This document shows positions 2,203-54,987 of a stretch of 64,000 nt of DNA, piece after piece. The position numbers were made by a program, and so were the translations under genes. The stretch is from Deltaproteobacteria bacterium (GTDB lineage: Bacteria; SZUA-79; Acidulodesulfobacterales; Acidulodesulfobacteraceae): contig JAMDCP010000011.1 of NCBI GenBank assembly GCA_023489335.1, forward strand, positions 199,057 through 263,056, written 5' to 3'. A model generated the notes under the pieces. The model worked only from the letters and a program-made list of their open reading frames with translations, was not told the origin of the DNA and did not search any database. Position 1 is the first letter of the stretch; each line of letters starts with the position of its first letter.

Positions 2203-3027
2203 ATGAAAGTTTCGAAGGAACTTCATATATCTTCGCCCGCAAGTTCTGAAAAGCATGGCTTTTCAGCGGGCGAAGATGCCGAAGGCCGAAAGCGAAGCGG
2301 TCACAGTGTTGCGGAAGAAAAGGGCTTAAAAAAGATTTACGAGGGCAAAGCGAAAATACTTTATGAATATCCCGGGGATGAAAATAAGCTGGTAACTTAT
2401 TTTAAAGATGATGCAACGGCATTTAACGGGCAAAAAAAGGGAGTAATTATGAATAAAGGGGAATATAACAACGCTATATCCGCCTCTTTATTCAAACTTT
2501 TAAAAAAACACGGCATAGAAAGTCATTTCATCGAGAAATTATCCAATAGGGAAATGCTCGTAAATCATTTAAAAATGTTTCCCGTCGAGTTTGTGGTAAG
2601 AAACATCGCCGCAGGGAGCCTTGCAAAAAAGATGGGAGTGGAAGAGGGGGTTAAATTACTTTCCCCCGTGGTTGAATTATATTTTAAAAGCGACGAACTT
2701 GGCGACCCGATGATTAACGAGACTTATGTTAAGGCATTTGATTTAGGAGAGGTCAAGGATGTAGAAGAGGCTAAAATTATTGCTTTAAAGATAAATGAAA
2801 TTCTAAAAGATTTTTTTGATAAAAATGGACTTTTACTTGTGGACTACAAACTGGAATTCGGCACTTTAAACGGAAAAGTTCTTTTGGCAGATGAAATTAC
2901 TCCCGACACAATGAGGTTGTGGGATAAGATAACCCTTGAAAAAGTTGACAAAGATAGGTTCAGAAGAGACCTTGGCGGCGTTGAAGAGGCTTATAAGAGG
3001 GTTTACGATATAACCTCGAAAATATAA
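2203..3027 (+). CDS. purC: Phosphoribosylaminoimidazole-succinocarboxamide synthase
   Basis: SAICAR synthetase joins CAIR and aspartate with ATP in purine synthesis. The catalytic core starts at about residue 43 with KKIYEGKAKILYEYPGDEN, followed by TYFKDDATAFNG, EFVVRNIAAGS, LLVDYKLEFG and LADEITPDTMRLWD, all family hallmarks. The predicted protein is 274 residues because about 40 extra residues precede the usual start. That leader is not optional: the strong AAGGAGGGGG ribosome-binding site and ATG sit at its beginning, and there is no in-frame ATG, GTG or TTG close to the core. The leader is encoded by a long palindromic element (2229-2277 and flank), so the palindrome appears to have been inserted in frame and translated. 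The gene stands alone, transcribed from its own promoter and ending at a bidirectional terminator. Confidence 0.93.
   Translation: MKVSKELHISSPASSEKHGFSAGEDAEGRKRSGHSVAEEKGLKKIYEGKAKILYEYPGDENKLVTYFKDDATAFNGQKKGVIMNKGEYNNAISASLFKLLKKHGIESHFIEKLSNREMLVNHLKMFPVEFVVRNIAAGSLAKKMGVEEGVKLLSPVVELYFKSDELGDPMINETYVKAFDLGEVKDVEEAKIIALKINEILKDFFDKNGLLLVDYKLEFGTLNGKVLLADEITPDTMRLWDKITLEKVDKDRFRRDLGGVEEAYKRVYDITSKI
2229..2277. repeat. Palindromic element inside the purC reading frame
   Basis: The outer arms 2229-2239 (ATCTTCGCCCG) and 2267-2277 are perfect reverse complements, as are the inner arms 2246-2254 (CTGAAAAGC) and 2258-2266, around a three-base ATG loop with a six-base bulge on the left. The total stem is 20 bp. 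It encodes about 16 residues of the purC N-terminal extension. Just after it comes GCCGAAGGC. The outer arm sequence nearly matches the hairpin at 52881-52927, so this is probably a dispersed repeat family. Confidence 0.8.
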
Positions 3028-52782: not shown

Positions 52783-52806
52783 TTTCCATCACTCCTCCTA
52801 AAGGTG
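52783..52806 (-). repeat. Short copy of the GC-rich repeat after htrA
   Basis: On the minus strand this reads CCACCTTTAGGAGGAGTGAT, resembling the tyrA leader (CCACCTT, then AGGAGG and, after an extra segment, CGGAGTGATT). The tyrA version has about 25 extra bases in between. The relation is by eye. Confidence 0.45.
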
Positions 52807-52844
52807 GCCCGGTTCCGTAAAAAGGACCGGGCTATTTATTTTAT
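52807..52844 (+). terminator. Terminator of htrA
   Basis: GCCCGG-T-TCC (52807-52816) pairs with GGACCGGGC (52824-52832) with one bulged T, followed by TATTTATTTTAT. The stem is GC-rich and the tail moderately T-rich. Confidence 0.65.
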
Positions 52845-52994
52845 AAAAGGTATCCGATTTATTTTTTAAATACCCCGTCCATCTTTGCCTGCATAAAACC
52901 GTTGGTTTTATAAACGCAGGCAAAGATACAGCCTAAAGGCGGACCGCCACCCCTTTTAAAAAAGGGGAATTAAAAAATAAATCGGATACCTTTT
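52845..52994. mobile_element. 150-bp MITE-like element with 25-bp terminal inverted repeats
   Basis: The termini 52845-52869 (starting AAAAGGTATCCGATTT) and 52970-52994 are perfect 25-base inverted repeats. Inside, ATCTTTGCCTGC (52881-52892) pairs perfectly with 52916-52927, and ATAAAACC (52893-52900) with GGTTTTAT (52904-52911), making a 20-bp bulged hairpin with a three-base GTT loop. GCCTAAAGGC and CCCCTTTT/AAAAGGGG follow. No ORF is inside. The hairpin arms nearly equal those inside purC. A TTAT occurs near both ends, but a clean target duplication is not evident. Confidence 0.65.
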
Positions 52995-53021: not shown

Positions 53022-53027
53022 TATAAT
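53022..53027 (+). promoter_or_regulatory. -10 box close to the selB start
   Basis: TATAAT at 53022-53027 predicts a transcription start about 53034, only a few bases before the selB ATG at 53038. No good -35 is present at 16-18 bases, and no Shine-Dalgarno precedes the ATG, so the transcript may be leaderless. Confidence 0.4.
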
Positions 53028-53037
53028 ATTACGGCAT

Positions 53038-54987
53038 ATGGAAAATTTTATATTGGGAACGGCGGGTCATATAGACCATGGAAAATCATCGCTGATAAAA
53101 GCCTTAACCGGCGTAGAAACAGATAGATTAGAGGAAGAAAAAAGGCGCGGGATTAGTATTGTGCTCGGTTATGCCAATATAACCCTTCCTTCTGGAATAT
53201 CCGTCGGAATTGTCGATGTTCCGGGGCATGCGAAATTTATCAAAACTATGGTTTCCGGTTCTACGGGAATGGATGGAGTTCTGCTTGTAATTGCCGCAGA
53301 CGACGGCATAATGGCTCAAACCAAGGAGCATCTTCTTATTTTAAAACTGTTGGGCATAGGTTTAGTCATACCTGTTTTAACCAAAATAGACACCGTAAAC
53401 GACGAAATCATTTCGAAAAGGGAAACCCTGATAAAAGATTTCTTGAAATCTTACGGTTACGATAAGGCATCCCAAAATATTATTAAGGTATCGATTAAAT
53501 CAGGCAGGGGCATTTTCGAATTAAAGAATGCGATAGAAAAGGCTATAAATGCCCGGCATGCGAAAGATGCAGCGGTACCCGCATCTACAAAGGTCTTTTT
53601 GCCGATAGACAGGGTTATTTCTTCGAAGGGTTTTGGAACAATTCTGGCAGGAACTTTAAAATACGGCAGTTTTTCGGTTGGAGACGAAATACAGGTAATG
53701 CCGTCCGGTTTAACCGCAAAGATAAAAAATATGGAATCGCACAATAAAAAAGTAACCGGGGCGCATAAATCTATGAGAATATCGCTCAATGTTCCCTCCA
53801 TAAAAAAGGAAAGCGTAAAATACGGGGATATAATATCTTCAAAAGACAGCCTTTTGGCAACCGACTCCGTTTTTACAAAGTTTTATTATGATTTTGACAA
53901 TAAAAAAGAGCTAAAGAGCCATCTAACATTAATATTTATGACCGGAAGCACCAGTATTAGCTCAAAGGTAATTATTCTAAATGAAAATAAAAAAATAAGT
54001 CCAGGAAATTATTCATATGCCATATTCAAATTGCAAAATAAAATATCCACAATGTCTAAGGAAAGATTTGTCGTAAGGGATGCAGGAGCGGGAAGAACGA
54101 TAGGCGGAGGAATTATAATAGACCCTTTTATAGATTATCGTTATGACGAACCCTCGGAAGGCGTTTACAAAGGAATGGCTTCGGATGACCCGCAAGAGGC
54201 TGTTTATAGCTTTATTAGGCTGGCAGGCGGCGCTGACCTGGAAGAGATTTATAAAAAATTAAATTTTAGCTATCCCGACTTTACGGCATTTATAGATAAA
54301 TTAAAAGGGGACGGAAGGATAATAGCGGATGATAAAAGAAAATTTGCGATTTTAAAGGAAGATTTTGATATAAGCAGGCATATATTGGTTAAGACAATTA
54401 AGGAAAATCTCGAAAATGAAAAAAGCGCCCTAAAAAGCGGGATCGGCAAACTGGAGTTATATCATCTGTTCGAGAATAATATTAATAAACATTATAAACA
54501 TTCCGAAGTTCTGTTCGATATTATTTTAGACGATTTGTTGTCGAAAAAAGAGATTTTGAACGATAACGGATATATAACTATTAAGAGTGCGGGCAACGAG
54601 CCTGCCGCATTTAAAATACCTGAGGAATGCCTTGAGGTCATTAAAAACATCGAAAATTTATTAAAGTCAAGCGGCAACAGCGTTCCCACTCTGGACGAAC
54701 TCGAAAAGAAAATTAAAATAAATAAAAAGATGTTGAATTACGCAATTACCGTAATGGCAAAGCAGGGAGAGTTAGTTAAGGTAAAACACGATATTTATTA
54801 TTTAAAAGAACAAATCGATAATATTAAAAAAGGCCTGGATTTATTTTTCCAATCTTCGGAAAGACTCGAGCCGAAGGATATGAAAGAAATCGCAGCGGTT
54901 TCGAGAAAATATGCCATACCTCTGTTAGAATATTTTGACTATGCCGGATATACGGTCAAAACAGGCGATTATAGAATCAAAAAGTAA
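53038..54987 (+). CDS. selB: Selenocysteine-specific elongation factor
   Basis: A 649-residue translation factor that brings Sec-tRNA to UGA codons with SECIS elements. An EF-Tu-like G domain has [42 protein letters not shown] and LTKID; domains 2-3 follow ([22 protein letters not shown], about 185-260). The C-terminal about 280 residues are a run of winged helices ending in [26 protein letters not shown], the SelB RNA-binding end. The protein is normal in length. selA, selD and the tRNA-Sec gene are not in the window, and I see no broken frame here that needs a Sec. The mRNA may be leaderless. Confidence 0.93.

Follow-up and report, generated by a model that had tools for sequence, protein, structure and literature searches.

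A young composite repeat element with nested mobile parts between htrA and selB in a genome of the Acidulodesulfobacterales

The intergenic region between htrA and selB in a genome of the Acidulodesulfobacterales carries a 150-base element (positions 52845-52994) that is young, multi-copy, non-coding, and mobile. Positions are those of the window, the whole 64,000-nucleotide stretch of DNA that was analyzed, which comes from a genome (G000) of 1.80 Mb in 21 contigs that is 92% complete. The element is nested: an inverted pair of ends encloses a second repeat, which in turn encloses an independently mobile hairpin. It is real, mobile, and recent, and in its workings it comes closest to a REPIN or TIR element carrying mobile repeats as cargo. 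Probably a composite and non-autonomous element, with a RAYT-type outer layer and two self-spreading inner repeats, inserted here recently. The observations behind this reading are dispersed copies, nesting with intermediate forms, empty sites in relatives, an association of the end motif with RAYT genes, and covariation of base pairs.

Structure and copies of the element

Layer 1 is formed by the left terminal inverted repeat (52845-52869, plus strand, AAAAGGTATCCGATTTATTTTTTAA) and its exact reverse complement on the right (52970-52994, minus strand). The preliminary description had read these as perfect 25-bp inverted repeats, which they are, and the pairing extends to 31 nt at 94%. The end sequence had 0 matches within 3 mismatches in 100 shuffles and so is not a product of chance. 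As written AAAAGGTATCCGATTTATTT, the end has neither a GTAG nor an internal stem. Layer 2 is a repeat with a left part (52870-52879, plus strand, ATACCCCGTC) and a right part (52929-52969, plus strand) that includes GGCGGACCGCCACCCCTTTTAAAAAAGGGGAATT and a hairpin of its own at 52949-52967. Between the two parts lies layer 3, an independently mobile 49-nt bulged hairpin (52880-52928, plus strand; model R1, 77.4 bits) composed of a 12-bp outer stem, a 4-nt bulge, an 8-bp inner stem, and a 3-nt loop. The entire element folds as a single cruciform, with a DNA folding energy of -48.4 kcal/mol versus -14.9 for shuffled sequence (z = -12). An Rfam scan returned weak, unrelated matches far under threshold, and the phage and plasmid records searched held no match to the 150-bp element.

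The genome contains about 10 near-full copies of the element (at least 90% identity) and dozens of partial ones, a census that combines searches with the reading of local stretches and may have missed some copies. Within 2 mismatches, the end motif occurs at 63 genome sites, compared with 7 for a reversed control pattern. The proposed search for inverted termini about 150 bp apart yielded 16 pairs, 47-195 bp long. Together with the empty selB site in relatives described below, these counts bear out the earlier view of a dispersed, non-coding inverted-repeat element.

Each of the three layers is also present in this genome without the next one. Layer 1 stands alone as end-pair palindromes of 47-55 bp (C3:216599, C8:21398, C18:4845, and C1:282900). 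Ends plus the CCCCGTC...GGGGAATT repeat make up elements of 104-105 bp (C8:109037, C8:110973, C8:93209, C9:56084, and C16:44481). Ends, repeat, and one hairpin give about 150 bp in the window element, at C9:67428, and at C19:68592, and two further 150-bp elements carry a different hairpin (C8:154699 and C9:115890), so that this class holds two hairpin types, ATCTTTGCCTGC and ATATTCACCTG. Both hairpins occur in one element of 195 bp (C20:107458-107652). Layer 2 is found without layer 1 at about 10 other places (e.g., C1:110062, C1:304269, and C12:31222), some of which have a hairpin inside the end-less repeat (C1:289504, C9:19233, and C12:19911). An outer AGCAACTGTATTGTTTG palindrome was considered as a fourth layer and rejected, since 7 of its 7 sites flank the element family; it marks a longer-ended subfamily.

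The htrA-selB site

The element starts just 3' of the htrA-side intrinsic terminator (52802-52837, plus strand), which is the conserved left neighbor of the insertion site. To the right, selB (53038-54987, plus strand) encodes 649 amino acids and is preceded by a -10-like TATAAT (53022-53027, plus strand) that is also present in the element-free sister species. The preliminary description placed the element between htrA and selB, as confirmed here, and immediately before the selB -10 box, which is not the case: 27 nt separate the element from the TATAAT. The element therefore ends 5' of where a -35 would be expected and does not touch the -10 or its spacer. No sigma-70 consensus pair scored before selB. 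From its position, an influence of the element on selB expression is possible.

In the proposed comparison with relatives, the same htrA-selB spacer was located in two same-genus genomes (G002 and G003); both retain the terminator and the -10, and in both the site is empty. Among the other syntenic relatives examined, no htrA-selB spacer held a copy of the element. The insertion is thus recent, as the empty spacers of G002 and G003 indicate. Rather than the single copy kept in all relatives that had been named as the contrary outcome, we find a multi-copy element at a site that is empty in these two genomes. The expected target duplication did not appear: none is visible when the filled site is compared with G002 and G003. 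The relatives of this SelB are from Candidatus Acididesulfobacter-type metagenome-assembled genomes, which would place the organism in the order Candidatus Acidulodesulfobacterales of acid mine drainage (PMC6776010).

The strong hairpin, the T-rich end, and the location between a terminator and the selB promoter would also suit a selected regulatory or terminator structure of htrA or selB that is not a mobile element. We consider this very improbable, as the same spacer is element-free in all relatives read, copies are dispersed at unrelated loci, and the selB -10 is unaltered.

The bulged hairpin family and its copies in genes

The hairpin of layer 3 belongs to a family of its own. Among 21 hairpin variants, compensatory changes affect 10 of the 20 base pairs, a number reached by 0 of 500 shuffles, which argues that the hairpin structure is maintained and not the sequence alone. 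A covariance model places the hairpin at 28 positions in this genome (E ≤ 1.3e-4), most further matches being on the reverse strand; at E ≤ 0.001, 26 of 30 family genomes have a match, as against 0 of 31 outside genomes. By reading of flanks, at least 20 of the 25 hairpins of this genome sit inside another repeat, including the repeats GTCATTGCGAG..CAATCTC and GTCATTCCCGC..GCGGGAATCC. The preliminary description treated the hairpin as part of a simple MITE; it is instead a separate mobile module.

Bulged hairpins are also inserted in the left ends of three IS605-type elements (L062, L134, and L139), and at L134 an additional hairpin disrupts the tnpA frame. A PATE-like origin of the hairpin from IS605 left ends was rejected, because it is present as an insertion in these three ends and absent from the other IS605 copies read. 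A rule of centered insertion into perfect palindromes was likewise dropped: flank complementarity is in weak excess (6.00 against 5.53, permutation standard deviation 0.20), and clear cases, such as L254, are few.

The link to a hairpin in purC, proposed from the window alone, is real and reaches further than was suggested. The purC hairpin (2228-2278, minus strand) is an in-frame insertion that supplies the residues ISSPASSEKHGFSAGED. It shares its geometry with the window hairpin and has the opposite orientation. The reported near-identity of the arms holds for the outer stems, ATCTTTGCCTGC against ATCTTCGCCCGC, which are alike at 10 of 12 positions, and does not extend to the inner stems, which differ in sequence. 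The purC N-terminal segment (residues 1-36; 2203-2310, plus strand) is composed of repeat plus hairpin and reads KELH-ISSPASSEKHGFSAGED-AEGRKRSG here and KELH-G-AEGRKRSG in G002. The purC of G002 has the repeat without the hairpin, and those of G001 and G003 lack both. On the simplest reading, the repeat inserted first and a 51-nt hairpin insertion then replaced 3 nt. The segment is near-identical to one in an otsA-like trehalose-phosphate synthase gene (L236, G000:C10:1885-1992), where the same repeat and hairpin lie in frame; this gene has about 46 residues extra relative to 5JIJ. At L259 (G000:C8:181284-181337), a bulged hairpin lies in frame in a SAM-methyltransferase gene beside a nifB-like gene and is a candidate third in-frame insertion.

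Could such hairpins have formed locally, through template switching at quasi-palindromes, with no insertion of a mobile unit? Many different stems do share one geometry, and sites lie within other palindromes. However, an identical 49-nt sequence occurs at five unlinked places in this genome and also in G020 and G022, and the purC copy is a discrete 51-nt insertion relative to G002. Local formation is accordingly an improbable account.

The copy number of the hairpin tracks no Y1 gene: G012, G018, and G002 have 17-25 hairpins and 0 Y1 matches. A possible, if rather doubtful, reading is that the hairpin represents a new kind of mobile DNA that is defined not by sequence but by its geometry (a 12-bp stem, a 3'-side bulge of 4-6 nt, an 8-bp stem, and a loop of 3-4 nt). 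It would insert into other hairpins and palindromes and in frame in genes, without any of the Y1 transposases found here, and build composite repeats layer by layer. The composite element with a RAYT-type outer layer remains the reading that we prefer.

RAYT-type transposases and comparison with known systems

The end motif was found in 30 of the 30 family genomes searched, as single, tandem, and inverted copies, with as many as about 120 sites in one genome. Around 11 RAYT loci it has 32 sites in 35 kb, a density of 0.91 per kb, compared with 0.05 per kb around 13 IS605 tnpA loci (2 in 40 kb) and 0.06 per kb around 27 purC loci (6 in 99 kb). The motif is thus about 15-fold denser at RAYT-type Y1 genes than at IS605 tnpA or purC, and this concentration points to mobilization of the REPIN/TIRtron type. 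The RAYT protein tested scored 71.9 bits against NF047646 (REP_Tyr_transpos), which is under the NCBIfam cut-off of 80, and 48 bits against PF01797. RAYT genes or long remnants are present in 10 of the 30 family genomes. Where there is a RAYT gene, the number of ends across the family is weakly higher (p = 0.08 for long genes and 0.03 including remnants), and RAYT presence was rejected as the sole predictor of end copy number on account of this weak association.

Neither the 92%-complete genome of the window nor G002 yielded a RAYT gene, and G003 yielded only a fragment. A full transposase with the same ends, which the preliminary description had proposed to look for, was likewise not found in this genome, and the genome-wide search with the end motif revealed no parent IS. 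Given the missing RAYT gene, these copies may have been left behind by an enzyme that was lost or is unassembled.

The ends also vary in sequence. Some RAYT-side copies (L176/L177) read TAAAGGGGACAGATTTATTT, which fits GGGGWSAS, the published consensus for TIRs that flank RAYT genes without GTAG REPs, termed TIRtrons (PMC3733652). The window ends read GGTATCCG, three positions off this consensus, and intermediate forms between the two occur in the family (GGTGTCAG and GGTATCAG).

Several further arrangements of the ends were seen. Stacked, truncated ends, in which a few nucleotides of flank and AAAAGGTRTC are present in an additional copy just outside, were found at 29 of 149 element ends and at 0 in shuffles (L034, L017, L021, L004, L023, and L037, plus 22 ends in relatives, e.g., L166, L189, and L150). 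The extra copies are mostly broken directly after GGTRTC, and this break may mark a point of enzyme processing. In several genomes (L099, L102, L105, L154, L166, and L168), one end motif immediately precedes the start codon of a PhzF-like gene and is perhaps a conserved or co-opted site. In G009 (L189-L193), end motifs in the same orientation (AAAAGTTATCCGATTTATTT and the like) alternate with small ORFs in what resembles a cassette-like array. A different genus of the family has, shared among its genomes, palindromes of about 85 bp (L194, L195, and L147) whose ends are the same and whose interior differs.

The MITE label given in the preliminary description holds in the broad sense; a MITE of the DDE-transposase kind is unsupported. 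A classical MITE would derive by internal deletion from a DDE-transposase IS, whose transposase would move it in trans, and the element resembles one in its perfect inverted ends, small size, lack of an ORF, many copies, and empty site in the sister species. Against this origin, which we judge unlikely, stand the filled and empty selB sites without target duplication, the lack of a parent IS in the end-motif search, and an interior of separate repeats found elsewhere and not of transposase-gene remnants. Moreover, the ends cluster in relatives at RAYT-type Y1 genes, and RAYTs are not the parents of classical MITEs.

In the favored composite element, the outer layer is an inverted end pair like those found around RAYT-type (HUH/Y1) transposase genes in the family. 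The paired ends most likely form a hairpin in single-stranded DNA, which would serve as the intermediate, and we infer that layer 1 was formerly moved by an enzyme of the RAYT type that this genome has lost or lacks. The CCCCGTC repeat inside the ends spreads as a unit of its own, and the 49-nt hairpin inside that repeat represents a palindromic mobile family that occurs across the bacterial family and also enters other repeats, IS605 ends, and genes in frame (purC and otsA-like). Layers 2 and 3 would move by a structure-guided process.

Among known systems, REPINs and their RAYTs (RAYT/TnpA-REP; PMC3116915, PMC8266576) are similar in that two short inverted end motifs form one large hairpin that is dispersed. 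As in REPINs, the element is intergenic, shows no target duplication, and has its motif around the Y1 gene of relatives. Unlike REPINs, its end is not a GTAG-tagged REP with a small palindrome of its own, its interior is made of other mobile repeats, and RAYT was not found in this genome. We therefore do not assign the element to the REPIN family, in view of the missing GTAG REP and RAYT, or to the classical MITEs, in view of the missing target duplication and parent.

TIRtrons or TIRYTs (Di Nocera et al. 2013, PMC3733652; subclass 2.1 of Quentin et al. 2018, PMC6006769) have terminal repeats around RAYT-like genes, a likeness seen here in relatives only, with the 32 motif sites around 11 RAYT loci. 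The variant GGGGACAG fits GGGGWSAS, and both dispersed singles and inverted pairs occur, but the window ends read differently and ends are also solitary in many places.

The two length classes of the element, set apart by about 50 bp of internal sequence, and its inverted ends of about 25 bp recall the Correia elements (CREE/nemis) of Neisseria. The main lengths of those elements are near 104 and 154 bp. The element here has another sequence and no TA target duplication. Its segment of about 50 bp is a hairpin that is mobile in its own right, a point in favor of insertion over internal deletion; a small repeat can thus come in two length classes through the insertion of a mobile hairpin.

Rickettsia palindromic elements, of about 150 bp (review PMC10969869), are likewise palindromic DNA in frame in unrelated protein genes that stay readable. 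The in-frame hairpins here behave like them, but the hairpin is 49-54 nt long, has another geometry, and is nested in repeats. RAYT-linked repeats and in-frame gene palindromes, which have been studied separately, are joined here in one free-living uncultured lineage, and what moves such palindromes becomes a testable question outside Rickettsia. The BOX, RUP, and SPRITE clusters of pneumococci (review PMC10969869) are also small repeats that insert into each other. Their sequences are different, and the nesting here is ordered, with intermediates present: a rare, near-complete series of ends, ends with repeat, the addition of one hairpin, and the addition of two, alongside sister species with empty sites.
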